Translations under genes and position numbers: made by a program
Shown: one piece after another, positions 5,898 through 19,307 of the stretch
Layout of the letters: the number at the start of each line of letters is the position of its first letter
How positions within the stretch are numbered: position 1 is the first letter of the stretch
Notes under the pieces: model-generated
Told to the model about the DNA's origin: nothing
Seen by the model: only the letters and a program-made list of their open reading frames with translations
The model's database searches: none
Source: Micromonospora coriariae
GTDB taxonomy: Bacteria; Actinomycetota; Actinomycetes; Mycobacteriales; Micromonosporaceae
Reading direction: 5' to 3'
DNA: 64,000 bases
NCBI RefSeq assembly: GCF_900091455.1
Contig: NZ_LT607412.1
Coordinates: forward strand, 5,518,001 to 5,582,000

Positions 5898-7553
5898 ATG
5901 TCTACTCGACCCGCCCTCATCGCCCATGACCTCCTGCGCGTCCGGGGTGAACGCCGGGTGCTCGATGGTGTCTCCCTGACCGCCGCGCCCGGCCACCGGA
6001 TCGGCCTGATCGGCGAGAACGGCACCGGCAAGACGACCCTGTTGCGGGTCCTGGCCGGCGTCGACCAACCCGACTCCGGCACCGTCGCCCGCCCACCGAA
6101 CCTCGGCTTCCTGCACCAGGAGATGCCCTACGACCCATCCGCGACGCTCGCCGCGATCCTCGACGACGCGCTGCGCGAGGCCCGAGCGGACCTCGCCGAG
6201 CTGGACCGGCTCGGCGCCGCGCTGAGCGACGCGCCGGAGGGCGCCGAGCGGCACGCCCAGCTGCTGGCCGCGTACGGCGAGGCCCTGGAACGGGCACAGG
6301 ACCGTGACGCCTGGGACGCCGACCGGCGTGGCGTGACGGTGCTCGCCGGCCTCGGACTCGGCGAGATGGCACACGATCGGACGCTGAGCGAACTGTCCGG
6401 TGGGCAGCGTGGTCGCCTCGCGCTGGCCGCGATGCTGATCCGCCGGCCGGACGCATTGCTGCTCGACGAGCCCACCAACCATCTCGACGACGCGGCGGCG
6501 GCGTTCTGCGAGGACCAACTCCGCGCGATGCCCGGAGTGGTCGTGGTGGCGAGCCACGACCGGGCGTTCCTGGACGCGGTGTGCACCGACGTCATCGATC
6601 TGGACCCGGCGGTCGAGGGTCCGGTCCGCTACGGCGGTGGCTACAGCGCATATCTGGCGCAGAAACGGGCCGAGGCCGAGCGTTGGCGCCGGCGCTACGA
6701 CGACGAGCAGGTGCGGCTCGCCGACCTGCGGCAGGCCGCCGCTGTGACCGGGCATCAGGTCGCACCCGGTCGCGGCCCCCGCGACAGCGAGAAGATGGGG
6801 TACGGGCACACCGCCGGCCGGGTGCAGAACCAGATCTCCCGCCGCGTCCGCGACGCCACCCGCCGGCTGGAGACGCTGGAGCGCGAGCAGGTCGCTGCGC
6901 CGCCGGAGCCGTTGCGCTTCCACGCACCTGTTCTCGCCACCGGCGCCGGCGACGACGTCATCGCCACCCTGCGCCAGGTGCGGGTACCCGGCCGGCTGCG
7001 GGTGGCGCATCTCGAGGTCACGGCGAGCGACCGGCTGTTGGTGAGCGGCCCGAACGGTGCGGGCAAGTCGACTCTGCTCGCCGTCCTGGCCGGGCGCGTC
7101 GGCGGCACCGGCGCCGTCTGGCGGCGGCCGGACCTGCGCGTCGGCCTGCTGGCTCAGGACACCACCTTCGACGATCCGCTGCGCACCGCCCGGGACGTCT
7201 TCGGTCGTGCCGTCGGTGCGGAGCGCGCCGAGGCGGTGCCGCTGTCATCGCTCGGACTGCTCGCGCCCGCGGACCTCGACCGAGCGGTGGCGGAGCTGTC
7301 GGTCGGCCAGCGTCGTCGGCTCGCCCTCGCGGTGCTCGTCGCCGACCCGCCGGAGTTGCTCCTGCTGGACGAGCCGACCAATCATCTCTCCCCGCGACTC
7401 TGTGACGAGCTGGAGGAGGCCCTCGGCACCGGTCCGGGCGCCATCGTCGTCGCCAGCCATGACCGGCGACTCAGGTCCCGCTGGCCGGGTCGCCAGGTCA
7501 CTCTCGCCGTCGGGCCGTCCACTGTTGGAAACGTTTTCGTAACGAGCCCTTGA
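5898..7553 (+). CDS. ABC-F family ATPase (antibiotic-resistance or ribosome-protection type)
   Basis: 551 residues with two ABC cassettes and no membrane segments. Cassette 1 has Walker A GENGTGKT (about residue 40), signature LSGGQRGRLAL and Walker B ALLLDEPTNHLDD. Cassette 2 has Walker A GPNGAGKST, signature LSVGQRRRLAL and LLLLDEPTNHL. The linker (about 245-350) is charged and contains GRGPRDSEKMGYGHTAGRVQNQISRRVRD, as seen in actinobacterial macrolide, lincosamide or streptogramin ABC-F proteins. Known members bind the ribosomal E site and dislodge or sense drugs. A 193-base leader precedes it. The 3' end carries a LacI-type operator for the next transcription unit. Confidence 0.88.
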   Translation: MSTRPALIAHDLLRVRGERRVLDGVSLTAAPGHRIGLIGENGTGKTTLLRVLAGVDQPDSGTVARPPNLGFLHQEMPYDPSATLAAILDDALREARADLAELDRLGAALSDAPEGAERHAQLLAAYGEALERAQDRDAWDADRRGVTVLAGLGLGEMAHDRTLSELSGGQRGRLALAAMLIRRPDALLLDEPTNHLDDAAAAFCEDQLRAMPGVVVVASHDRAFLDAVCTDVIDLDPAVEGPVRYGGGYSAYLAQKRAEAERWRRRYDDEQVRLADLRQAAAVTGHQVAPGRGPRDSEKMGYGHTAGRVQNQISRRVRDATRRLETLEREQVAAPPEPLRFHAPVLATGAGDDVIATLRQVRVPGRLRVAHLEVTASDRLLVSGPNGAGKSTLLAVLAGRVGGTGAVWRRPDLRVGLLAQDTTFDDPLRTARDVFGRAVGAERAEAVPLSSLGLLAPADLDRAVAELSVGQRRRLALAVLVADPPELLLLDEPTNHLSPRLCDELEEALGTGPGAIVVASHDRRLRSRWPGRQVTLAVGPSTVGNVFVTSP

Positions 7554-7638
7554 CCTCTCCGCCACCGGCGGCGCAGACTCCCGGAAACGTTTACAGCTAT
7601 CCGGGTGGAGGTGCCGAACGTGGGTCGTAAACGTTTAC
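7527..7638. promoter_or_regulatory. Three LacI-family operators (AAACGTTT boxes)
   Basis: GGAAACGTTTTC at 7527-7538 (inside the end of the ABC-F gene), GGAAACGTTTAC at 7583-7594, and the perfect palindrome GTAAACGTTTAC at 7627-7638 (inside the start of the LacI gene). The AAACGTTT core with a central CG is the classic LacI/GalR operator core. Centres are 56 and 44 bases apart, so looping or stacked repression of the downstream operon is plausible. Confidence 0.8.
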
Positions 7639-8711
7639 AGGAACCGGCTGACGGCCGGCCCACTGTGCACACGGTCGCCGCCCGCGCCGGTGTCTCCATC
7701 GCGTCCGCCTCGCGAGTGCTCAACGGCATCGGCGGCAGCCCGGAGACGATCCGCAAGGTACGCGCCGCGGCGGCCGAGGTGGGCTATGTGCCGAACGCGA
7801 TCGCCCGTTCGTTGCAGTCCCAGCGCACCGGCCTTGTCGCGCTCGCCGTCGAGGACATCGGCAACCCGGTCTACGTCGAGATGATGCGCGCCATCGAGTC
7901 CGTGGTCGCCTCCTCCGGGCGGCAACTGCTGGTGCACGCCACCGGCGGACGGATCGACAACGAGACCGCCCTGCTGCGCCGGCTGGCCAACCGCTACGTG
8001 GACGGGATGATCGTCTCGCCGATCCGGGTCACCGACGACCACCTGACCGCGCTGGTGGACAGCCCGGTTCCGGTGGTGGTGGTCGGCCAGCTCGGCGCGG
8101 ACGCTCCGGTCGACAACGTGCGTACCGACTCGCGGCACGGTGTGGCGCTGGCCGTGGACCACCTCGTCGCCAGCGGCCGGCGCCGTATCGGCTTCGTCAA
8201 CGGCCCGCTCGACACCGTCCCGGGTACCGCCCGCGACGCCGGCTTCCGGGCCGCCCTGGCGCGACACGACATCCGGCTCGACGAGGACCTGATCGAGGTC
8301 GGCGACTTCCAGTACGCCGCCGGCCGGGCCGCCACCGAGCGGCTGCTCGCCCGCACCGACCCGGACGCCCTGGTCTGCGCCAACGACCTCATCGCGGTCG
8401 GGGCGCTGCACGCCCTGCTCGCCGCCGGGCGTCGGGTGCCGCAGGACGTCGCCGTCGTCGGCATGGACGACACCGAGCTCGCCCGGATGATGTTTCCCCA
8501 GCTCTCCAGCGTCTCGCTCGGGTCCGCCGCGCGTGGTCGCCGGGCGGCCGAGCTGCTCCTGCAACGCATCGCCGACCCGACAGTGCCGCCGCGGCGCGAG
8601 CAGGTACCTCCCAGCCTCGCCATCCGCGCGTCCAGTGGCCCGCCGCTGCCGGCACCCCGGCCGGCCGCCCCGGCGACCACCCACCCGACCAGCGAAGGGG
8701 TGACCGCATGA
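7605..8711 (+). CDS. LacI family transcriptional regulator of the downstream sugar operon
   Basis: 368 residues from the GTG at 7605; a GTG at 7620 is an alternative. The helix-turn-helix reads TVHTVAARAGVSIASASRVLNG, followed by the hinge helix VPNAIARSLQSQRTGLVALAVEDI. The rest is a periplasmic-binding-protein-like sensor domain, with FVNGPLDTVPGTARDAGFRAAL and VCANDLIAVGALHAL typical of sugar-sensing members. Three AAACGTTT operators sit upstream and within the first codons. The stop overlaps the first permease by four bases. It is expected to repress the whole 7.6-19.3 kb operon until a sugar ligand binds. Confidence 0.92.
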   Translation: MEVPNVGRKRLQEPADGRPTVHTVAARAGVSIASASRVLNGIGGSPETIRKVRAAAAEVGYVPNAIARSLQSQRTGLVALAVEDIGNPVYVEMMRAIESVVASSGRQLLVHATGGRIDNETALLRRLANRYVDGMIVSPIRVTDDHLTALVDSPVPVVVVGQLGADAPVDNVRTDSRHGVALAVDHLVASGRRRIGFVNGPLDTVPGTARDAGFRAALARHDIRLDEDLIEVGDFQYAAGRAATERLLARTDPDALVCANDLIAVGALHALLAAGRRVPQDVAVVGMDDTELARMMFPQLSSVSLGSAARGRRAAELLLQRIADPTVPPRREQVPPSLAIRASSGPPLPAPRPAAPATTHPTSEGVTA

Positions 8712-9643
8712 CCACGCTGGCCGAGCGGCCGGACGTCGAACGGGCCGGACCGGCCCGCCGGCCGAACCGGTTCCGTTCCGACCGGACCACCATCTACCTT
8801 CTGCTCCTGCCGTCGCTGCTGCCGATCCTGGTGCTGTCGGTGTTTCCGCTGCTGCGCGGCATCTATCTCGGCTTCACCGACGCCCGGGCCGGGCGCAACG
8901 TCGAGGTGTCCTTCACCGGCCTGGCCAACTACCGCGAACTCCTCGGCGACGAGCTGTTCTGGAACTCGTTCAAGATCGGTCTGCTCTGGGCGGTCGGGGT
9001 GACGGTGCTCCAGTTCCTGCTCGCCCTCGGGCTGGCCCTGCTGCTCAACCAGCAGTTGCGTTTCCGGGGTGTGGCCCGGGTGCTGGCCGTGGTGCCGTGG
9101 GCGATGCCGCCGGTCGTGGTCGGCATCCTCTGGAAGCTCGTCTACCACCCGGACGCCGGCCTGCTCAACGAGTTCTTCCACCGGGTCGGCGCCGACGGGC
9201 TGCGGACCAACTGGCTCGGCGACTTCAGCACGGCACTGCCCGCCGTGATCCTCGTCGGGGTCTGGGCCGGTATGCCGCAGACCACCGTCGTCCTGCTCGC
9301 CGGCCTCCAGGGGGTGGGCCGCGAGCTGCACGAGGCCGCCGCGGTGGACGGGGCCAGCACGTGGCACCGGTTCCGGCACGTCACGCTGCCCGCCCTGGCC
9401 CCGGTGATCGTGGCGATCACGTCGCTGGACTTCATCTGGAACTTCAACTCGTTCGGGCTGGTGTACGTGCTGACCGCGGGCGGGCCGGGCGGCAAGACCA
9501 TGCTGCCGATGCTCTTCGCCTACGAGGAGGCGTTCCGCTACGGCAACTACGGCTACGCCGCCGCGCTCGGCAACGTGATGGTCGTGCTCATCATCGCGCT
9601 GCTCGCCGTCTATCTCCGGCGCCGGCTGAGGGAGGCGAACTGA
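8708..9643 (+). CDS. Carbohydrate ABC transporter permease (MalF type)
   Basis: 311 residues with six predicted membrane helices. The cytoplasmic EAA loop reads ELHEAAAVDGASTWHRFRHV, matching EAA-x3-G-x9-I-x-LP for contact with the ATPase. A polar N-terminal tail precedes the first helix (TIYLLLLPSLLPILVLSVF), as in the CUT1 family that imports oligosaccharides and glycosides. It overlaps the LacI stop by ATGA and is one base from the second permease. No ATP-binding subunit is encoded in the operon. In actinomycetes a shared MsiK-type ATPase elsewhere commonly serves such importers. Confidence 0.92.
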   Translation: MTTLAERPDVERAGPARRPNRFRSDRTTIYLLLLPSLLPILVLSVFPLLRGIYLGFTDARAGRNVEVSFTGLANYRELLGDELFWNSFKIGLLWAVGVTVLQFLLALGLALLLNQQLRFRGVARVLAVVPWAMPPVVVGILWKLVYHPDAGLLNEFFHRVGADGLRTNWLGDFSTALPAVILVGVWAGMPQTTVVLLAGLQGVGRELHEAAAVDGASTWHRFRHVTLPALAPVIVAITSLDFIWNFNSFGLVYVLTAGGPGGKTMLPMLFAYEEAFRYGNYGYAAALGNVMVVLIIALLAVYLRRRLREAN

Positions 9644-9644
9644 C

Positions 9645-10484
9645 ATGTTCGGAAAGCCGAGCCGTACCGGGCGGGCGCTGCAGTACCTGGCGCTCCTCGG
9701 CTACCTGATCTTCCTCGGATTCCCGCTGATCTGGCTGCTCTCCACGGCCTTCAAGCCGCCGAGGGAGCTGGTGCGGCTGCACCCCACGCTGATCCCGAGC
9801 GACCCGACCGTGCAGAACTTCGTCCAGGCCTTCACCGAGCAGGAGCTGGGCCGGGCGGCACTGAACAGCCTCCAGGTCTCGCTGTCCTCGGCGGTGCTGA
9901 CCGTCCTGGTCGCCATGCCGGCCTCGTACGCGCTGGCCCGGTTCCGCTCCAAGCTCGGCACCGCGGCGTTGGGCTGGGTGCTGCTGTCGCAGCTCTTCCC
10001 GTTCGTGCTGCTGATCATCCCGATCTTCCTGGTGCTGCGGCAGGTCGGCCTGGCCAACACGCACGCCGGGCTGGTGCTGATCTACGTGGTCTGGGCGCTG
10101 CCGTTCGCGCTGTGGATGCTGCAGGGCTTCGTCCGCAACATTCCTCGCGAGCTGGAGGAGGCCGCCTCGGTGGACGGGGCGAGCCGCGTGCAGGTCCTGC
10201 GCCGGGTGGTGTTCCCGTTGCTCGCCCCGGGCCTGGTCGCGACCGCGCTCTTCTCCTTCATCTCGGCCTGGAACGAGTTCTTCTTCGCCCTGGTGCTGAT
10301 CAAGACGCCCGATCTGGCCACCTTGCCGGTGGCGCTGGCCCGGTTCGTCGGCATCGAGGGCACCGCCCGACTCGGGCCGCTCGCGGCCGGCTCGCTGCTG
10401 GCCACCCTGCCCAGCCTGATCTTCTTCGCGTTCATGCAACGCCGGCTCTCGTCCGGGTCGCTCGCCGGCGCGGTCAAGGGCTGA
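9645..10484 (+). CDS. Carbohydrate ABC transporter permease (MalG type)
   Basis: 279 residues, six membrane helices. The EAA loop reads ELEEAASVDGASRVQVLRRV. It opens with GRALQYLALLGYLIFLGFPLIWLLSTAFKP and contains the ASYALARFRSKLGTAAL segment usual for MalG-like CUT1 permeases. It pairs with the preceding MalF-type subunit to form the membrane channel. The start is one base after the previous stop, so translation is probably coupled. Confidence 0.92.
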   Translation: MFGKPSRTGRALQYLALLGYLIFLGFPLIWLLSTAFKPPRELVRLHPTLIPSDPTVQNFVQAFTEQELGRAALNSLQVSLSSAVLTVLVAMPASYALARFRSKLGTAALGWVLLSQLFPFVLLIIPIFLVLRQVGLANTHAGLVLIYVVWALPFALWMLQGFVRNIPRELEEAASVDGASRVQVLRRVVFPLLAPGLVATALFSFISAWNEFFFALVLIKTPDLATLPVALARFVGIEGTARLGPLAAGSLLATLPSLIFFAFMQRRLSSGSLAGAVKG

Positions 10485-10518
10485 ACCGTCCCCCAACCAC
10501 CACCAAGGAGGTACCCCC

Positions 10519-11811
10519 ATGCTCCGTACCCGATTCCGTCGACTGGCCGCGGCCACCGCGGTCGCGGTCGTCGGCCTCGGCGCGCTCGCCGCGTGCGGTG
10601 ACGGCGGCGGCGACGAGGCCACGTCCGGCCCGGTCAAACTGCGCTTCCTGAGCCTCGCCTGGCAGAAGGAGTCGCTGCAGGTCAACAAGGACCTCGTCGC
10701 CAAGTGGAACGCCGAGCACCCCGACATCCAGGTCGAGTACGTCCAGGGTGACTGGAACTCGGTGCACGACCAGTTGCTGACCTCCTTCGAGGGCGGCGAC
10801 GCACCGGACATCGTGCACTACGAGGCGTCCTCGATCGGTGAGTTCAGCAAGCAGGGTTACCTGGCCGATCTCTCCGGGCTCGTCTCCGACGACCTCAAGG
10901 GTCAGATCGACAAGGGCGTCTGGGACACCGCGACCTTCGACGGCAAGGTCGCAGGTGTGCCGTTCCTGCTGGAGTCGCAGGTCGTCATCGCCAACAAGAA
11001 GCTGCTCGACGCCGCCGGCGTCGCGGTGCCGCCGGCCGACGGCGGCTGGACCTGGGACGAGTTCCAGAGCAACGCGCAGAAGCTCACCAAGCCCGGCCAG
11101 TACGGCGTGGCCTGGGCGTTGAAGTCGCCGACCAACCGGGTGCTCAACCTGGCGCTCAACTACGACGGGAAGTTCTTCTACACCGACGGTGGGCGCACCG
11201 AGGTCAGGGTCGGTGACGCGGAGAAGGAGATCCCGAAGCGGATCCACGACATGATCTACACCGCGAAGTCGGCGTCCCCGGAGGCGCTCGGCATGAGCGG
11301 CGCGGACACCCTCCCCGGCTTCTTCGGCGGCAAGTACGCCATGCTGCCCGGCTCGGTGTCGCTGCGTCAGCAGATGGTCGAGCAGGCGCCGGCCGGCTTC
11401 GAGTGGGTCACCCTGCCGCCGGTCAAGGGGCTCTCCAGCAAGCAGGCCGCGAACCCGCAGACGCTCTCGGTCTCCGAGGACTCCAAGCACAAGAAGCAGG
11501 CCGCGCAGTTCCTCGAGTACTTCCTGAACCCGACCAACATGGCCGCCCTGGCCAAGGGTGACTGGCTGGTTCCGACCGGCAAGCAGGCCAACGAGGAGCT
11601 GGTCAAGGTCACCACCGGCAAGCAGGGCTGGGACGTCGCCGCGGACAGCGCCGCGGACCTGACCGTCGCCCCGTTCCAGCAGGCCGACGGCTACCCGGAG
11701 TGGAAGACCAAGTACGCCACCCCGGCTCTCCAGCAGTACTTCGCCAACAAGATCACCCTCGATCAGCTCGGTACGCAGTTGGTCGACGGTGGCAAGCAGG
11801 TTCTGAGGTAG
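10519..11811 (+). CDS. Sugar-binding lipoprotein of ABC transporter
   Basis: 430 residues. A type II signal peptide ends in the lipobox LAAC with the lipidated Cys at residue 26, followed by a Gly/Asp-rich tether. The body is a cluster B (SBP_bac_1) binding protein: VKLRFLSLAWQKESLQVNKDLVAKWN, then GDWNSVHDQLLTSFEGGDAPDIVHYE. Aromatic residues typical of sugar stacking are frequent. GGAGG lies close before the ATG. It is anchored outside the membrane and delivers substrate to the two upstream permeases. Ligand unknown; the operon context suggests a ribose-containing or other glycoside. Confidence 0.92.
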   Translation: MLRTRFRRLAAATAVAVVGLGALAACGDGGGDEATSGPVKLRFLSLAWQKESLQVNKDLVAKWNAEHPDIQVEYVQGDWNSVHDQLLTSFEGGDAPDIVHYEASSIGEFSKQGYLADLSGLVSDDLKGQIDKGVWDTATFDGKVAGVPFLLESQVVIANKKLLDAAGVAVPPADGGWTWDEFQSNAQKLTKPGQYGVAWALKSPTNRVLNLALNYDGKFFYTDGGRTEVRVGDAEKEIPKRIHDMIYTAKSASPEALGMSGADTLPGFFGGKYAMLPGSVSLRQQMVEQAPAGFEWVTLPPVKGLSSKQAANPQTLSVSEDSKHKKQAAQFLEYFLNPTNMAALAKGDWLVPTGKQANEELVKVTTGKQGWDVAADSAADLTVAPFQQADGYPEWKTKYATPALQQYFANKITLDQLGTQLVDGGKQVLR

Positions 11812-11813
11812 AC

Positions 11814-13007
11814 ATGTCACTCTTGCTCGACACATCGGTCGGCTGCCTGGTCGGCGCCGCGGTCGGAGACGCCCTCGGCGGCGCCACCGAGACGGCACTA
11901 CCGGAGCAGATCCGCGCACGGTTCGGCGGTTGGGTCGAGGGCATCGTGCCCCCGTACCACGCCGACTGGGCCACCGCGCGACCGCTCGCGCCGTACCACA
12001 AGGGCGACGGGCACATCACCGACGACACGTTGATGACCCACGCCCTGGTCCGCGCCTACGCGGCCAAACGCGACCACCTCGACGCGTACGACGTGGTGGA
12101 GCTGCTGGTCCCCGACCTGATCGAGCGGGTGGTCTACATCCCCGACCTGGAGCGGGAGGGGGTGACCTTCCACCGGCTCGCGGCCGCCGAGCGGTGGCTG
12201 GTCACCCGCCTGCACCACGCCCACGCGGACCCGCGCGAGGCCGGGGTCGGCAACATCGTCAACTGTGGAGCGGCCATGTACATGGCCCCGGTCGGCATCG
12301 TCAACGCGGGCGATCCGGCCGGGGCGTACGCCGAGGCGGTGGAGATCGCCGGGGCGCACCAGCACAGCTACGGGCGGGAGGCCGCCGCCGTCTTCGCGGC
12401 GGCGGTCGCCGCGGCGGCGACCCCCGGCGCCGGCGTCGAGGATGTCGTCACCGCGGCGCTGGACCTGGCCCGCGACGGCACCCGGGCGGCCATCGACGCG
12501 GTGGTCAAGGAGGCCCGGAGCCACCACGACTGGAAGCAGGCGATTCCGGCGCTGCGCGCGGCGGTCGCCCCCTACGACACGGTGGGGGAGGAGTACCGGA
12601 GTCCGGGCCTCGGTGCGCGGCGGCCCAGCCGGCTGCACGCCATCGAGGAGCTACCGGTGGCCATCGGCATGCTCGTGGTAGCCGGCGGCGAGTTCCGCCC
12701 TGCGGTGCTCGGCGCGGTCAACTACGGCCGGGACGCCGACTCGACCGCGACCATGGCCGCTGCCATCGCCGGGGCGCTCGGCGGCGCCGCCGCGGTGCCG
12801 ACGGAGTGGTCCGAGGTGGTCGCCACCGCCTCCAGGACCGACCTGGTGGAGCCGGGCCGGATCCTCGCGGCGGTGGCCGGCGAGGTCTTCGAGCGGGACC
12901 AGGCCCGGTTCACCCGGCGCGCGGAGCGCTTCGCCGGCCTGGCCGGCCTGGCCGGTGGCGCCGGGCGGGCCGTGCCGGACGCACCGGACGGGGAGCAGAC
13001 CCGGTGA
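11814..13007 (+). CDS. ADP-ribosylglycohydrolase (DraG/ARH) family protein, copy 1
   Basis: 397 residues from the ATG at 11814, two bases after the binding-protein stop. The all-alpha DraG fold is indicated by VGCLVGAAVGDALGGATE near the N-terminus, the dinuclear-metal motif TDDT at residues 69-72, and the C-terminal NYGRDADST (Asp307, Asp309) that completes the metal site. Known family members hydrolyse ADP-ribosyl-arginine and related N- or O-ribosides. In a sugar-import operon, with a ribokinase three genes on, a small imported riboside is a likelier substrate than a modified protein. Its stop overlaps the next GTG start. Confidence 0.88.
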   Translation: MSLLLDTSVGCLVGAAVGDALGGATETALPEQIRARFGGWVEGIVPPYHADWATARPLAPYHKGDGHITDDTLMTHALVRAYAAKRDHLDAYDVVELLVPDLIERVVYIPDLEREGVTFHRLAAAERWLVTRLHHAHADPREAGVGNIVNCGAAMYMAPVGIVNAGDPAGAYAEAVEIAGAHQHSYGREAAAVFAAAVAAAATPGAGVEDVVTAALDLARDGTRAAIDAVVKEARSHHDWKQAIPALRAAVAPYDTVGEEYRSPGLGARRPSRLHAIEELPVAIGMLVVAGGEFRPAVLGAVNYGRDADSTATMAAAIAGALGGAAAVPTEWSEVVATASRTDLVEPGRILAAVAGEVFERDQARFTRRAERFAGLAGLAGGAGRAVPDAPDGEQTR

Positions 13008-14356
13008 GGTTCACCTGGGTCCAGCCGGAGGACCTGCTGCCCCACGAGTTGGCGGCCGGCCGGGACGAGGGCCGCGACGTGGCGGCCCTCGCCCGGCGGT
13101 GGACCGAGGCCGGCGGGGACCTGACCCCGCCGGTCAGCGGAGCGTCGCCCACCCCGGCCTCGCCCGCGCTGCGGGCGCTCGCGGCGGAGCTGCTGGACGC
13201 CGCCGACGCGCTGCCCGCCGTCGCCACCGACGACGAGCCGGACGACCTGGCCGCGCTCCGGGCCCAGTGGCCGGACGCCTGGTCGCTGTCGACCGACGTG
13301 ACGTACGACCGGTTGCACGGCGCGTGGCTCGGGCGGGCGGCAGGATGCCTGCTCGGCAAGCCGGTGGAGAAGATCCCCCGCGAGGGGATCCGGGAGATCC
13401 TCACCGCCACCGGCCGATGGCCGCTGCGGGACTGGTTCACCGCGAAGGGACTGCCGGCCGACGTCGCCGCCCGCTGGCCCTGGAACCGGCGCAGCGCGCC
13501 GACCAGCCTCGCCGAGAACATCGACGGCATGCCCGAGGACGACGACCTGAACTACCCGCTGCTGGCCCTGCGGGTGCTCGAGACCCAGGGGCGGGACTTC
13601 ACAAGCGCCGACGTGGCGCAGGCCTGGCTGGACTGGCTGCCCGGTGGGCGGGTCTTCACCGCCGAACGGGTGGCATACCGGAACCTGCTGCTCGGGCTCG
13701 CGCCACCGCAGAGCGCCCGCCGGCACAACCCGTTCCGGGAGTGGATCGGCGCGCAGATCCGCACCGACGTGTACGGCTGGGTCAACCCCGGCCGGCCGGA
13801 CCGGGCCGCGGAGCTGGCCCTGCGGGACGCCACAGTCAGCCACGTCCGGGGTGGCGTGCACGGCGCGCTCTGGGCCGCCGCCCTGGCCGCCGCCGCGCCG
13901 GTCGCCGACACCGTCGACGAGGTGCTGGACGCGGCCGAGGCGGTGCTGCCGCCGCGCAGTCGGTTCGCGGCCACGGTCCGCGAGGCGCGCGCCCTCGGCG
14001 CGGGCACCGACGACTGGGAACGCGTGGTCGACGAGCTGTACGACCGCCACGGTCACCTGCACTGGGTACACGTGCGCAACAACGCCGCGCTGGTGGCCGC
14101 CGCACTGGCGTACGGCCGCGGCGACCTGGAGCGGTCCATCACCGCTGTGGTCAGTGGCGGCTGGGACACCGATTCGACAGGCGCGACCGTCGGTGCGGTG
14201 ACCGGGGCGCTCACCGGGGCGTCGGGGCTGCCGGCGCGGTGGATCGCCCCGCTGCGCAACCGGCTGGCCAGCAGCATCGCCGGTTTCGACGGGATCGGTT
14301 TCGACGAGCTGGCCGAGCGGACCCGGGCCCTGGCCGAGGCGGGGAGCGGGTCATGA
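13004..14356 (+). CDS. ADP-ribosylglycohydrolase (DraG/ARH) family protein, copy 2
   Basis: 450 residues from the GTG at 13004, overlapping copy 1 by four bases. A roughly 95-residue N-terminal extension (RFTWVQPEDLLPHELAAG..., sharing little with copy 1) precedes the fold, which starts at YDRLHGAWLGRAAGCLLGKP. Metal-site motifs are EDDDLNYPLLAL (residues 178 on) and GGWDTDST near residue 395. The two copies are divergent in sequence, so they probably act on different bonds or substrates rather than being a recent duplication. The extension may bind a partner or close the active site; that is inference. Confidence 0.85.
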   Translation: MRFTWVQPEDLLPHELAAGRDEGRDVAALARRWTEAGGDLTPPVSGASPTPASPALRALAAELLDAADALPAVATDDEPDDLAALRAQWPDAWSLSTDVTYDRLHGAWLGRAAGCLLGKPVEKIPREGIREILTATGRWPLRDWFTAKGLPADVAARWPWNRRSAPTSLAENIDGMPEDDDLNYPLLALRVLETQGRDFTSADVAQAWLDWLPGGRVFTAERVAYRNLLLGLAPPQSARRHNPFREWIGAQIRTDVYGWVNPGRPDRAAELALRDATVSHVRGGVHGALWAAALAAAAPVADTVDEVLDAAEAVLPPRSRFAATVREARALGAGTDDWERVVDELYDRHGHLHWVHVRNNAALVAAALAYGRGDLERSITAVVSGGWDTDSTGATVGAVTGALTGASGLPARWIAPLRNRLASSIAGFDGIGFDELAERTRALAEAGSGS

Positions 14357-14387
14357 CGCAGCACGGGTGGACGAAAGGGAGCACGGC

Positions 14388-15326
14388 ATGAGCGCGCGTG
14401 TGGCCGTGGTGGGCAGCAGCAACCTGGATCTGGTGGTGACGGCGTCCCGGCTGCCCCACCCCGGCGAGACGGTGCTGGGCGAGAACTTCCGGACCGTGCC
14501 GGGCGGCAAGGGCGCCAACCAGGCGGTGGCCGCCGCGCGGGCCGGCGCGGCCTGCGACTTCGTCGGCGCGGTCGGTGACGACGAGTTCGGTACGCAGATG
14601 CGGGCCAGCCTGGCCGGCGCCGGGGTGGGCGTTCGCGGCCTGCGGACCGTCGCCGGTGCCTCCGGCATCGCGCTGATCGCCGTCGACCGGGACGCGGAGA
14701 ACTTCATCGTCGTCGCGCCCGGCGCCAACGGCACGTTGACCGAGCTGGACGCCGACGACCGGGCGACCATCGCCGCGGCCGACGTGCTGCTGCTCCAGCT
14801 GGAGGTGCCGCTGGCCGCGGTGGTCCAGGCGGCCGGCTGGGCCCGGGGGGCGGGCACCACCGTCGTGCTGAACGCCGCACCGGCCGCCGTCCTGCCGACG
14901 GGGCTGTTCGACCTGGTCGACGTGCTGGTGGTCAACGAACACGAGGCGGCGGTCGTGGCCGGGGTCTTCTCCGAAGATCCGTCGGTGCTGCTCGACGCAC
15001 TGCTGGAGCTGGTGCCCCGGGTGGTGCTGACCCGCGGCGCGCGCGGTGCCGCGTACGCCGACCGACGTGGTCTGCGCCTGGCGGTCCCCGCCCCGCGCAT
15101 CGACGCGGTGGACACCACCGCCGCGGGCGACGCCTTCACCGGGGCGCTCGCCGTCGGCTGGGCCGAGCGTGGCGGCGCCACCACCGACGACACCGTCCTG
15201 GCGAGCCTGCGCTGGGCGTGCGCCGCCGGCGCGGCCTGCGCCCAGCGGCACGGCGCCTCCACCGCCCTGCCCGAGCGGTCCGCCATCGACGCCCTCTACG
15301 ACGCGACCTACCGAGGTACACCGTGA
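14388..15326 (+). CDS. rbsK: Ribokinase (PfkB family carbohydrate kinase)
   Basis: 312 residues from the ATG at 14388; a GTG at 14367 is less likely because GGGAGC sits just before the ATG. Motifs: VAVVGSSNLDLVV at the start, VPGGKGANQAVAAARAGA (PfkB signature 1, ribose-binding GGKGAN), and DTTAAGDAFTGAL (signature 2, catalytic Asp and anion hole). GGKGANQA followed by FVGAVGDDEFG is characteristic of true ribokinases. The reaction is ATP + D-ribose to ribose 5-phosphate. Placed after two DraG-fold genes, it probably traps the ribose they release. Confidence 0.88.
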   Translation: MSARVAVVGSSNLDLVVTASRLPHPGETVLGENFRTVPGGKGANQAVAAARAGAACDFVGAVGDDEFGTQMRASLAGAGVGVRGLRTVAGASGIALIAVDRDAENFIVVAPGANGTLTELDADDRATIAAADVLLLQLEVPLAAVVQAAGWARGAGTTVVLNAAPAAVLPTGLFDLVDVLVVNEHEAAVVAGVFSEDPSVLLDALLELVPRVVLTRGARGAAYADRRGLRLAVPAPRIDAVDTTAAGDAFTGALAVGWAERGGATTDDTVLASLRWACAAGAACAQRHGASTALPERSAIDALYDATYRGTP

Positions 15327-17302
15327 GCTTCAACCCGTACGTCCCGCGCCCGATCGACCGGCCGACCGAGGTGCCGCTCGGCGGACACGCCGACCTCACC
15401 ACTCTGGACGAGGCGAAGATCTTCGCCGCGCCGACCGACCCGGCCGACTGGCCGGCCTGGCGGGAGCAGCTCACCCGCTGGCGGGCCGACGCCCGCGAGC
15501 GCATCGGCTACAGCGGCGCGCACTACGACGAGATCCCCGGCGACTGCTTCAGCGTCTGCCTGGCGTGGCTCTGGGACGAGGCGCTCTACGACCACGAGCG
15601 CGGCGTCTTCACGGTCGACGAGTTCCTCGACGCGGCCGCACGGGACTTCGGCGGCTTCGACGGGGTGGTGCTCTGGCACGCGTACCCGGTCATCGGCCTG
15701 GACGACCGCAACCAGTTCGACTGGTACCGGGACGTGCCGGAGCTGCCCGAGGTGGTGCGGGCGTTCCAGGAGCGGGGGGTGCGGGTCTTCATCGACTACA
15801 ACCCGTGGGACACCGGCACCCGCCGCGAGCCGGGCAGCGACGCCGAGGAGGTCGCGGCCCTGGCCGGCAAACTCGGTGTCGACGGGGTCTTCCTGGACAC
15901 CCTGAAGGAGGGCGCCGGGGAGCTGCGCGCCGCGTTGGACGCCGTCCGCCCCGGCATGGTCCTCGAAGGTGAGAGCCGGGTTCCGCTGGCCCGGATCGCC
16001 GACCACGCGATGTCGTGGGCGCAGTGGTTCGCCGACTCCGAGGTCCCCGGAGTGCTGCGGGCGAAGTGGTTCGAACGGCGGCACGTGCTGCACCACACCC
16101 GGCGCTGGCACCGCGACCACCTCGACGAGTTGCACTCCGCCTGGCTCAACGGCGTCGGGGTGCTGGTGTGGGAGAGCGTCTTCGGGGTCTGGGTCGGCTG
16201 GAACGACCGGGACCGGGCGGTGCTGCGCGCGATGCGCCGGGTGCAGACCAGCCACGCCGCGTGGTTGCGCGCCGAGGACTGGGTCCCGCTCGCCGACCAT
16301 CCCGGCACGGGCCAGGTGTACGCGTCCCGCTGGACGCACCAAGGCAAGCCACTGTGGACGGTGGTGAACCGGGGCGCGGACCACGACGGACCGTGGCTGA
16401 TCACCGAGGCCCGGCCCGGCCGGCGCTTCGTGGACCTGGTCACCGGCGCCGAGCTGGACGTCACCGAGACCGGTGACGGGCGGCTGGCGGTGGGCGGTCC
16501 GCTGCCGGCCAGCGCCATCGCCGCCGTGGCGATGACCGGCGCCGCCGTCCAGCGGCACGAGCCACCCACCGGCGACCCGTCCTTCCCCGCCCGCGCCGCG
16601 GTGCGCGTGCGGACCCCGTGGGCGCCCCGGCAGCAGCTGCCGCGAGGCATGGCAGCCGTCGAGGCCGGCCGGCGGGACATCGTCGTCCGGCACCGCGTAC
16701 GGGAGACCGGGCTGTACGGCGAGGCGCCCTACGTCGACGAGTGGAAGCCACTGCCGCCCCGGCTGCACCACACCGGCACGCTGCGGCGCAGCATCCGGCT
16801 CGGCCGGTACGCCATCGCCACCCACGAGGTCACCCACGGCGAGTACGCCGAGTTCCTGCGGGCCACCGGCTACCGACCGGTGCGCCCCGAGCGGTTCACC
16901 GCGGGGCAGGGCCCGGCCCATGCCCCGGTCACCGGGGTGGAGTTGGTCGACGCCCGGGCGTACGCGACGTGGGCCGGGCTGCGGCTGCCCACCGAAGACG
17001 AGTGGCAGGTGGCCGCCGAGGCGGGGCTGCTCGTACGCCGGGAACCGCTGGTGTGGAACCTGACCGAGAGCGAGCACTCCGACGGGCGCACCCGGTTCGC
17101 CATCCTCAAGGGTGGCGCGGACCACCGGGCCGACGGCTCCGACTGGTACCTCGACGGCGGCCCCCAGTCGGCGGACGTCTCGGTGAAGCTGCTGCTCACC
17201 GGCGCCGGGCTCACCCGCTCCGACCAGGTGGGCTTCCGCTGCGCCGTGGACCTGGTGCCCGACTCCCGTGTGGCACCCGACGCGACGGAGGTGACCCGGT
17301 GA
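15323..17302 (+). CDS. Barrel-type putative glycosidase fused to an FGE-sulfatase-like domain
   Basis: 659 residues from the GTG at 15323, overlapping the ribokinase stop. Residues about 50-400 look like a TIM-barrel hydrolase: FDGVVLWHAYPVIGLDDRNQF, VRVFIDYNPWDTG, VDGVFLDTLKEG, MVLEGES. These give acidic residues at strand ends, as in retaining glycosidases. A beta-rich region follows. Residues about 475-655 resemble a formylglycine-generating-enzyme/EgtB-type fold: IATHEVTHGEYAEFLRATGY, LRLPTEDEWQVAAEAG, VWNLTESE, and the terminal GFRCA. The paired cysteines that catalyse oxidation in true FGE are not visible; only the final Cys remains. The domain is thus more likely a binding module. Exact function unknown. 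Confidence 0.65.
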   Translation: MSFNPYVPRPIDRPTEVPLGGHADLTTLDEAKIFAAPTDPADWPAWREQLTRWRADARERIGYSGAHYDEIPGDCFSVCLAWLWDEALYDHERGVFTVDEFLDAAARDFGGFDGVVLWHAYPVIGLDDRNQFDWYRDVPELPEVVRAFQERGVRVFIDYNPWDTGTRREPGSDAEEVAALAGKLGVDGVFLDTLKEGAGELRAALDAVRPGMVLEGESRVPLARIADHAMSWAQWFADSEVPGVLRAKWFERRHVLHHTRRWHRDHLDELHSAWLNGVGVLVWESVFGVWVGWNDRDRAVLRAMRRVQTSHAAWLRAEDWVPLADHPGTGQVYASRWTHQGKPLWTVVNRGADHDGPWLITEARPGRRFVDLVTGAELDVTETGDGRLAVGGPLPASAIAAVAMTGAAVQRHEPPTGDPSFPARAAVRVRTPWAPRQQLPRGMAAVEAGRRDIVVRHRVRETGLYGEAPYVDEWKPLPPRLHHTGTLRRSIRLGRYAIATHEVTHGEYAEFLRATGYRPVRPERFTAGQGPAHAPVTGVELVDARAYATWAGLRLPTEDEWQVAAEAGLLVRREPLVWNLTESEHSDGRTRFAILKGGADHRADGSDWYLDGGPQSADVSVKLLLTGAGLTRSDQVGFRCAVDLVPDSRVAPDATEVTR

Positions 17303-18486
17303 CCGCGCCCCTGGACGGGATCAAGGTCGTCGACCTGGCCACCCTCTTCGCCGGGCCGCTCGCCGCCGCGTTCCTCGGCGACTTCGGCGCCGACGTGCTC
17401 AAGGTGGAGCACCCCACCAAGCCGGACCCGTCGCGGGGGCACGGCCCGGCCCGGGACGGCGTCGGCCTCTGGTGGAAGGTGCTCGGCCGCAACAAGCGGA
17501 CCGTCACCCTCAACCTGTCCGACCCGGACGGCGCCGCGCTGCTGCGCCGCCTGCTCGCCGACGCCGACGTGCTGGTGGAGAACTTCCGCCCCGGCACGCT
17601 GGAGCGGTGGGGACTCGGCCCGGCCGAGCTGCACGCCGTCAACCCCCGGCTGGTCATCACCCGGATCAGCGGCTTCGGGCAGGTCGGCCCGTACGCCCGC
17701 CGGCCCGGCTTCGGCACCCTCGCCGAGGCGATGAGCGGCTTCGCCGCGGCCACCGGGGAACCGGACGGTCCACCGACCCTGCCCCCGTTCGGGCTGGCCG
17801 ACTCGGTGACAGCGCTCGCCGCCGCGTACGCGGTGATGCTGGCCCTGCGCGCCCGGGACACCACCGGCACCGGGCAGGTGGTGGACCTCGCCATCATCGA
17901 GCCGATCATGGCGATGCTCGGCCCGCAGATCACCTGGTACGACCAGCTCGGCTACATCCAGCCCCGGCTGGGCAACCGGTCCAACAACAATGCCCCGCGC
18001 AACACGTACCGGTGCGCGGACGGGCGCTGGGTGGCCGTCTCCACAAGTGCGCAGAGCATCGCCGAGCGGGTGCTGCGGCTGGTCGGCCGACCCGAACTGA
18101 TCGACGAGCCGTGGTTCGCCACCGGCAGCGGTCGGGCCGCCCACGCCGACGAGCTGGACGCCGCGGTGAGCGCCTGGGTGGCGAAGCGGGACCGCGACGA
18201 GGTGGTGACCGCGTTCGAGGCGGCGCAGGCGGCGGTCGCGCCGGTCTACGACGTGCGGGACATCCTGGCCGACCCGCAGTACGCGGCGCTGGGCACCGTG
18301 CGCAGCGTCCCGGACGAGGAGTTGGGTGAGGTGCGGATGCAGAACGTGCCGTTCCGGCTCACCGACACTCCGGGGGAGATCCGGCACGCCGGCCGGCGAC
18401 ACGGCCAGGACACCGACGCGGTCTTCGGCGCGCTCGGCCTGAACGCCGACGAGCTGGCCGCACTGCGCGAGCGGGGAGTGCTCTGA
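17299..18486 (+). CDS. CaiB/BaiF family CoA-transferase
   Basis: 395 residues from the GTG at 17299, overlapping the previous stop. A class III CoA-transferase: LDGIKVVDLATLFAGPLAAAFLGDFGADVLKVE at the start, NKRTVTLNL, LVENFRPGTLERWGLG, and FGLADSVTALAAAYAV with the probable catalytic Asp168 that forms the aspartyl-CoA anhydride. Family members move CoA between carboxylic acids (formyl/oxalyl, succinyl/malyl, succinyl/itaconyl). The next gene is a CoA-ester lyase. The pair could therefore activate a hydroxy-dicarboxylic acid and split it, as in malyl-CoA or citramalyl-CoA pathways. No hydratase is present here. Confidence 0.92.
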   Translation: MTAPLDGIKVVDLATLFAGPLAAAFLGDFGADVLKVEHPTKPDPSRGHGPARDGVGLWWKVLGRNKRTVTLNLSDPDGAALLRRLLADADVLVENFRPGTLERWGLGPAELHAVNPRLVITRISGFGQVGPYARRPGFGTLAEAMSGFAAATGEPDGPPTLPPFGLADSVTALAAAYAVMLALRARDTTGTGQVVDLAIIEPIMAMLGPQITWYDQLGYIQPRLGNRSNNNAPRNTYRCADGRWVAVSTSAQSIAERVLRLVGRPELIDEPWFATGSGRAAHADELDAAVSAWVAKRDRDEVVTAFEAAQAAVAPVYDVRDILADPQYAALGTVRSVPDEELGEVRMQNVPFRLTDTPGEIRHAGRRHGQDTDAVFGALGLNADELAALRERGVL

Positions 18487-19307
18487 TGCTGCTCAGCTGG
18501 CTCTACGTGCCCGGCGACCGCCCGGACCGGTTCGCCAAGGCGGTCGCCTCGGGTGCCGACGCGGTCATCCTCGACCTGGAGGACGCCGTCGTCGCCGGGC
18601 GCAAGGCGTACGCCCGGGACGCGGTCGCCGAGTTCCTCGCCGAGACGCACCAGGTGCCGGTGCAGGTTCGGGTCAACGAGCTGACCGGGCCGGACGTCGA
18701 CGCCGACCTGGCCGCGGTGTCCGGTCGACCCGGACTGGCCGGGTTGCGGCTGCCGAAGGTGGAGTCGTCCGCGACGGTGGCGGCGCTCGCCGACCGGGTG
18801 AACGTGCCGCTGCACCCACTGGTCGAGTCGGCGCTCGGGCTGGAGGCCGCGTACCCGATCGCTTCCGCCCACCCCGCGGTGGCCTCGATCGGTCTCGGCG
18901 AGGCCGACCTGCGCTCCGACCTCGGGGTGAACGACGACGACGGGCTGCTCTGGGCGCGCGGCCGGGTGGTGGTGGCGGCCCGCGCCGCGGGCCTGGTCCC
19001 GCCGGCGATGTCGGTGTTCGCCGATGTCACCGACGTCGCCGGTCTGGCCGCCTCCTGCGCCGTCGGGCGGCGGCTCGGCTTCCTCGGCCGCGCGGCGATC
19101 CACCCGCGTCAGCTGCCGGTGATCGTCGAGGCGTTCCGGCCCGCCGACCGGGAGGTGGCCCGCGCTGCGGAGCTGCTGGCCGCCGTGGCCGAGGCGCTGC
19201 GACGGGATTCGGGAACCGTGGTGCTGCCCGACGGCCGTTTCGCCGACCGGGCGATGGTCGCCGCCGCCCGGCGCACCGTGGACCTGGCCGCCCGCTACGC
19301 CGCCTGA
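18486..19307 (+). CDS. HpcH/HpaI (CitE-like) CoA-ester lyase
   Basis: 273 residues, overlapping the CoA-transferase stop by one base. Markers of the CitE/malyl-CoA lyase group: SWLYVPGDRPDRFAKAVASGADAVILDLEDAV (phosphoenolpyruvate/pyruvate barrel, acidic Mg ligand), VRVN, LRLPKVES, PLVESALGLEAAYPIA (catalytic Glu), IGLGEADLRSDLG and AIHPRQLPVI. Known relatives cleave malyl-, citramalyl- or beta-methylmalyl-CoA to acetyl- or propionyl-CoA plus glyoxylate or pyruvate. As the last gene of the LacI operon it probably finishes breakdown of the non-sugar half of the substrate. Its last 13 bases overlap the convergent DUF305 gene. Confidence 0.9.
   Translation: MLLSWLYVPGDRPDRFAKAVASGADAVILDLEDAVVAGRKAYARDAVAEFLAETHQVPVQVRVNELTGPDVDADLAAVSGRPGLAGLRLPKVESSATVAALADRVNVPLHPLVESALGLEAAYPIASAHPAVASIGLGEADLRSDLGVNDDDGLLWARGRVVVAARAAGLVPPAMSVFADVTDVAGLAASCAVGRRLGFLGRAAIHPRQLPVIVEAFRPADREVARAAELLAAVAEALRRDSGTVVLPDGRFADRAMVAAARRTVDLAARYAA

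Follow-up and report, generated by a model that had tools for sequence, protein, structure and literature searches.

The consulted part of a review (PMC7050489) presents enzymes of the DraG/ARH family as erasers of ADP-ribosylation. What, then, do two members of this family do in an operon of the soil actinobacterium Micromonospora coriariae that also encodes a sugar importer, a ribokinase-type kinase and enzymes of CoA-ester chemistry? The operon lies in a window of 64 kb (C1:5518001-5582000, contig NZ_LT607412.1), which is the whole stretch of DNA that was analyzed and to which unlabeled positions below refer; the host genome is a single contig of 6.93 Mb. Ten open genes on the plus strand extend from lacI (7620-8711) through a CitE-type lyase (18486-19307), and the same set recurs across Actinomycetota. 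With about even confidence, we interpret it as a substrate-inducible catabolic operon, in which an imported glycoconjugate would be cut by DraG-fold glycosidases, the ribose would be passed to the ribokinase, and a hydroxy-dicarboxylic acid would be CoA-activated and cleaved. A catabolic function as such is well supported, and a riboside of a hydroxy acid as the substrate is plausible. The features are as follows.

7527..7538, plus strand: predicted LacI-type palindromic operator 1, within the 3' end of the upstream ABC-F-like gene (stop at 7553)
7583..7594, plus strand: predicted operator 2, between the ABC-F-like gene and lacI
7627..7638, plus strand: predicted operator 3, within the 5' end of lacI
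7620..8711, plus strand: LacI-family repressor (Pfam, NCBIfam, sequence reading; longest possible start 7605)
8708..9643, plus strand: ABC permease, UgpA/MalF-like (Pfam, NCBIfam)
9645..10484, plus strand: ABC permease, GlcU/MalG-like (Pfam, NCBIfam)
10519..11811, plus strand: extracellular solute-binding lipoprotein (Pfam; lipobox LAAC by eye)
11814..13007, plus strand: DraG1, ADP-ribosylglycohydrolase-family hydrolase (Pfam; TDDT and GRDxDS motifs)
13004..14356, plus strand: DraG2, ADP-ribosylglycohydrolase-family hydrolase (Pfam; N-terminal extension of ~95 residues, PEDDD and GWDTDS, ARH3-type fold)
14388..15326, plus strand: ribokinase-type PfkB kinase (Pfam, NCBIfam, PDB matches, motifs)
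15323..17302, plus strand: glycosidase-like TIM barrel fused to an FGE/SUMF1-like domain
17299..18486, plus strand: class III (CaiB/BaiF) CoA-transferase (Pfam, NCBIfam, conserved motif)
18486..19307, plus strand: CitE/RipC-type CoA-ester lyase (Pfam, NCBIfam, alignment)

A sequence-only reading had placed ten genes of the same direction here, and all ten are indeed open on the plus strand. Its statement that most neighbors overlap by 1-4 bases holds for five of the nine junctions (in order -4, +1, +34, +2, -4, +31, -4, -4 and -1 bp), but two pairs lie at most 2 bp apart and two are separated by gaps of 31-34 bp. Pfam agrees with the gene families it had named (LacI, two BPD permeases, SBP_bac_1, two ADP_ribosyl_GH, PfkB, FGE-sulfatase, CoA_transf_3 and HpcH_HpaI), with the exception of the barrel portion of the fusion, for which no Pfam family matched. 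The operon had been drawn from 7605, but the start of lacI is probably the GTG at 7620, which stands 7 nt after GGAGGT in the sequence. At the right end, the unit seems to close at 19307, because the next gene (DUF305) lies on the opposite strand. Scanning the window for Rfam families and tRNAs gave no matches, a scan for sigma-70-type promoters found none, and the one terminator-like match is under the shuffle mean.

One LacI gene with three operators had been proposed as well, and three palindromes sharing the pattern GKAAACGTTTWC were found at 7527, 7583 and 7627. Without mismatch, GKAAACGTTTWC occurs at these three places only in the whole genome, and a reversed-pattern control gave 0 matches. 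Within the window, a closely similar pattern yielded five strand matches (at three places) versus 0.09 expected in shuffles, an expectation calculated after the fact with a pattern drawn from these same sites. No regulon beyond the operon was found genome-wide with the exact pattern, sites with mismatches not having been sought. Among 67 related loci with LacI directly before a permease, 54 contain at least one AAACGTTT within -150 to +60 of the called lacI start and 13 contain none. The simple interpretation is a repressor dedicated to this locus; LacI would bind three sites surrounding the start of its own gene and so shut the operon off. Operator 1 overlaps the last codons of the ABC-F-like ATPase gene (5898-7553), and this overlap could couple that gene to the operon.

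A search of gene neighborhoods, suggested together with the sequence-only reading, revealed a conserved operon-like set in Actinomycetota and a parallel set in Alphaproteobacteria, so that the objection of a neighborhood lacking conservation falls away. The 80 actinobacterial loci are the best DraG2 matches of at least 573 confirmed relatives, biased to close relatives, and come from Micromonospora, Asanoa, Jiangella, Streptosporangium, Microbacterium, Amycolatopsis, Streptomyces and others. Gene calls and clustering assigned DraG2 in 79 of them, DraG1 in 78, CaiB, CitE, the binding protein and the permease PermG in 73 each, the permease PermF in 72, the ribokinase in 69, LacI in 67 and the barrel/FGE fusion in 59, with contig ends and missed calls included among the uncalled genes. 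The exact gene order of the window was found in 20 loci, and the same order plus an esterase before CaiB in 10. Extra DraG-fold genes are present in 26 loci (two in 18, a fused pair in 5, one in 3), up to four DraG-fold genes per operon. GTDDTEY and GRDADT are preserved in the third DraG protein of these relatives, but clear motifs are gone from the fourth. In locus L053, CaiB lies on the opposite strand. Four Streptomyces loci (L063, L066, L071 and L072) have the row extra DraG genes-DraG1-DraG2-ribokinase-CaiB-CitE, with apparent trp and lgt genes, named by eye from translations, on the right side.

The two DraG-fold proteins retain the features of metal-dependent glycohydrolases of this family. 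DraG1 and DraG2 score 160.9 and 169.2 bits against PF03747 (gathering score 26.2) and have the ARH alpha-helical fold, that of DraG2 being of the ARH3 type. The metal motifs TDDT and DxDS together with E26 are invariant in 32 DraG1 sequences, as are EDDD and DTDS together with E122 in 36 DraG2 sequences. E26 and E122 align with a Glu of solved family members, presumed from residue counting to be the flap Glu. With 50.3 and 32.9 bits against the DraG equivalog TIGR02662 (cut-off 337 bits), the proteins were therefore not filed as nitrogenase-type DraG, and the cut-off of the Tri1 equivalog in NCBIfam was missed by far by both. As cytoplasmic dinuclear-metal enzymes they would hydrolyze glycosidic bonds. 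Alpha-ribofuranosidic bonds would be the most likely targets, given that two metals in ARH1 and ARH3 bind the ribose cis 2'',3''-diol and that both enzymes are selective for alpha-1'' links according to the consulted part of PMC7050489. Outside the operon, the same genome contains three more ADP-ribosylglycohydrolase-family genes (C1:39785-40672, 517447-518253 and 1423839-1424747).

The remaining genes can be arranged around this hydrolytic step. The binding protein and the two permeases would bring in an intact small glycoconjugate; none of the ten genes encodes an ATP-binding subunit, and an ATPase encoded elsewhere would supply the power. The importer matches MalE, MalF, MalG, UgpA and GlcU models of NCBIfam, every one under its cut-off. 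For the fusion protein, the FGE-sulfatase match is partial (residues 489-576 of 659 only), and this protein may cleave one more glycosidic bond. The best PDB matches of the kinase are ribokinases, and the stretches GGKGaNQA, QLExP and DtTxaGD, which we take to be ribokinase signatures, are largely kept across 73 aligned rows; the kinase would yield ribose 5-phosphate. The CoA-transferase reaches 413.5 bits against PF02515 (gathering score 23.3) and has the conserved GQvvD region, the Asp of which is presumably catalytic in class III CoA-transferases. It would put CoA on a hydroxy-dicarboxylic acid of the malate/citramalate type, and the lyase, a member of superfamily PF03328 with RipC as best NCBIfam model and citE close behind, would split the ester into an acyl-CoA of the acetyl-CoA type and an oxo acid.

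The nature of the acid was approached through five other contexts of CaiB relatives with 49-67% identity, three of which fit a hydroxy-dicarboxylate by lyase, hydratase or aldolase-type neighbors. In Rhodococcus, a CoA-ester lyase and a PrpD-family gene are nearby; in Pararhizobium, the CaiB gene stands with CitE, a hydroxyacid dehydrogenase and RraA; and in Haloferax gibbonsii (L126:5750-11983) it is in a row with isochorismatase-family, amidohydrolase, HMG-CoA lyase and LeuCD genes, possibly an uncharacterized route to a dicarboxylate. Citramalate, malate, 3-hydroxy-3-methylglutarate and citrate are all candidates for the acid, CaiB and CitE both being under their equivalog cut-offs.

Searching plasmids with DraG1 by tblastn gave 23 matching records, and the 12 examined comprise 11 rhizobial-type loci and one from Microvirga. 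The DraG1-like genes of rhizobial megaplasmids encode proteins with 40-47% identity over 58-71% of the query, are in all 11 loci preceded by a LacI gene, two permeases and a binding protein, and are followed, as a rule, by a gene for a DraG protein of ~700 residues. A second DraG gene is present in 10 loci (not seen in L088), CaiB follows in six (L096 and L114-L118), and CitE adjoins CaiB in five (not seen in L114). L087 and L113 have a full-length ribokinase match nearby, and neither ribokinase nor CaiB was found in L086, L088 and L093. In Rhizobium sp. RCAM05350 (L115:3418-14309), the LacI and DraG genes are annotated in pieces and CaiB is unannotated, and the set looks decayed. In the CaiB tree, the rhizobial rows group with the Pararhizobium CaiB of another operon, and the actinobacterial rows fall on the side of the Burkholderia, Sphingomonas, Rhodococcus and Haloferax rows. 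A single origin of all CaiBs of DraG operons was rejected by a one-clade constraint (p-AU 1e-10; 4.9e-13 without the Haloferax row), in a test run after the first CaiB tree had been seen and with long branches present, covering 11 actinobacterial (window included) and 5 of 6 rhizobial DraG-operon CaiBs versus 5 others, with rows P0135-P0199 of unknown gene context left out. Given the post-hoc test and the long branches, the coupling of DraG-fold and CaiB/CitE genes most likely arose twice, and a functional link is therefore argued better than by one inherited neighborhood.

Other lineages contain further arrangements. The gene order is LacI-ABC-hypothetical-DraG-ribokinase-DraG in Deinococcus, where a protein of 370 residues has no Pfam family match, and LacI-DraG-ABC-ribokinase-UgpC in Mycolicibacterium. 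In Microvirga (L120), a DraG gene (27% identity) stands beside ABC-importer and galactonate dehydratase genes. DraG proteins of ~700 residues are encoded at L087:13021-15120, L117:9022-11121 and L090:9980-12115, and the C-terminal ~400 residues of such proteins in rhizobia, Enterobacter and Deinococcus have no Pfam match, as shown for L087, L090 and L086. In Enterobacter, the gene for this protein has a LacI gene on one side and a binding-protein gene on the other. On a Subdoligranulum variabile plasmid (L091:3388-14694), an ABC importer is followed by DUF4127, AAC(3)-like, PfkB, DUF4434, two DraG-family and F420-ligase-like genes, and this row, another one centered on DraG genes and with partners that lack an explanation, also contains an ORF of 734 residues without Pfam match. 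On a plasmid of the archaeon Halostella pelagica (L095:7648-19119), a DraG2 relative lies by a PnrA-type ABC transporter set, nucleoside hydrolase, PfkB, enolase-family and GFO/IDH genes.

The catabolic scheme of the sequence-only reading thus gained from the conserved set, the intact metal motifs, the ARH3-type fold of DraG2, the ribokinase-type motifs and three of the five CaiB contexts, but some relatives break it, and the following observations weigh against our interpretation. The ribokinase is uncalled in 11 and the barrel in 21 of the 80 loci, some of which end early. Four Streptomyces loci (L063, L066, L071 and L072) keep the enzyme row without LacI and ABC genes (Streptomyces L057 does have them), L074 has DraG2 and ribokinase only, L084 has neither kinase nor CaiB/CitE, and CaiB-CitE lie upstream of lacI in L052, L058 and L070. 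DraG2 was found at E<=1e-60 in 37 of 121 Micromonospora genomes (own included), one being only 44% identical; in an even sample of the phylum it was present at E<=1e-20 in 12 of 296 genomes, the own one again included. The kinase scores 265.1 bits against the ribokinase equivalog TIGR02152 (cut-off 299.65), the lyase 145.6 bits against RipC (cut-off 375) and 142 bits against citE (cut-off 443.4), and the CoA-transferase is also under its NCBIfam equivalog cut-off. The operon encodes one lyase, not a complete route. No lyase was seen among the neighbors of the Sphingomonas CaiB relative (57%), which stands among oxidoreductase, dioxygenase and other CoA-transferase genes, or among the nine ORFs scanned around the Burkholderia relative (67%). 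Finally, the 11 rhizobial loci have ribokinase or CaiB but in no case the two together, so that the halves of the operon may not act on a single molecule.

This last point leads to the alternative that survives best, although we consider it rather unlikely: two modules under one repressor, in which the DraG-fold, barrel and ribokinase proteins would degrade a ribose-containing oligosaccharide, and CaiB/CitE would take an ester-decorating acid freed outside by an esterase, not a glycosidic aglycone. Of the 80 loci, 20 cluster with a PF00756 esterase that has beta-propeller repeats and, by eye, an N-terminus resembling a signal peptide; in 13 of these 20 it was called directly before CaiB. Both the sub-cut-off importer matches, of sugar/oligosaccharide type, and the use of either half by rhizobia agree with such a division. 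However, most loci lack the esterase, as does the window, and short junctions tie CaiB to the DraG genes in Actinomycetota.

Somewhat less probable still is the salvage of an unusual nucleoside, with DraG-fold nucleosidases, ribose going to the ribokinase, and the base being opened to a dicarboxylate for CaiB/CitE. The surroundings of the Halostella DraG2 relative (PnrA-type transporter set, nucleoside hydrolase and PfkB kinase) point in this direction, as do a Rhizobium DraG2 relative that stands after a BMP-type ABC transporter, and the dihydroorotase-like, amidohydrolase and isochorismatase-family genes near the Rhodococcus and Haloferax CaiB relatives. In Escherichia coli, a DraG gene shares the yegTUV operon with genes for a putative sugar kinase and a symporter predicted to carry nucleosides (PMC10819704, consulted part). 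In contrast, Pfam recognized no ring-opening or deaminating enzyme in our operon, and the importer belongs to the sugar type. Common nucleosides also have beta links, but ARH1 and ARH3 are selective for alpha ones according to the consulted part of PMC7050489.

Cleavage of a non-ribose cis-diol sugar, with a shifted specificity of the kinase, appears improbable: the kinase is under the ribokinase cut-off and varies more across loci than CaiB (45-95% versus 66-98% identity to the window), but CitE is equally variable (43-96%), and the signature stretches, largely kept, as well as the best PDB matches are those of ribokinases. That the DraG-fold proteins are regulators undoing ADP-ribosylation of operon enzymes or transporters, like DraG on nitrogenase reductase, is suggested by family name and fold but is very improbable, as Pfam finds no ADP-ribosyltransferase in the ten genes, two to four DraG-fold genes per operon exceed the needs of a switch, and the DraG and Tri1 cut-offs are missed by far.

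Compared with known systems, our preferred catabolic glycoconjugate operon resembles several in part. Bacterial rbs operons combine a LacI-family repressor, ABC uptake and ribokinase, all shared with the operon described here, which differs by its MalEFG/Ugp-like importer and by hydrolases that would free the sugar intracellularly. In itaconate/citramalate and malyl-CoA routes, a class III CoA-transferase acts with citramalyl-CoA or malyl-CoA lyase. Our operon has the same succession of class III CoA-transferase and CitE-fold lyase; unlike these routes, it lacks a hydratase gene, is coupled to glycosidase-type genes, and is under both equivalog cut-offs. With DraG, ARH1 and ARH3 the two hydrolases share PF03747, the ARH3-type fold (DraG2), the dinuclear-metal motifs and a Glu at the presumed flap position; unlike those, their genes sit with sugar uptake, in sets of two to four and with no ADP-ribosyltransferase gene. 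E. coli YegV is, we assume, a PfkB-family protein like the kinase of this operon. In the yegTUV operon of the GgaR regulon, a DraG-family gene, a sugar kinase and a nucleoside-type transporter are under repressor control, the function being given as unknown in the consulted part of PMC10819704; this weakens the earlier claim that a catabolic role of DraG-fold enzymes would be new. According to the same part, yegTUV has a nucleoside-type symporter of the MFS, a GntR-type regulator and one DraG gene, and no CoA-transferase, lyase or barrel, whereas the present operon has an ABC importer and LacI and is not of the yegTUV type. Among the open-licence papers listed, no title or abstract opening describes such an operon and PMC10819704 is the only relevant precedent, which does not prove that none exists. 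A Salmonella PfkB protein with ribose kinase activity (PMC13432705, consulted part) was rejected as a precedent, its neighborhood being different.

More tentatively, and with clearly lower confidence than in the catabolic operon itself, we suggest that DraG-fold enzymes may be recurrent catabolic alpha-ribofuranosidases, which in batteries of two to four would dismantle an alpha-riboside of a hydroxy-dicarboxylic acid common in soil, in a pathway assembled separately in actinobacteria and rhizobia. The set offers a direct path to assays, with a binding protein, cytosolic enzymes and a repressor with a genome-unique exact operator pattern. The recurrent pairing of DraG-fold genes with a sugar importer, CoA-ester chemistry and a ribokinase suggests that this family has a second role, as catabolic glycosidases. 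If this is true, many annotations as 'ADP-ribosylglycohydrolase' would be misread, and soil and root bacteria would be using a nutrient that is still unknown.

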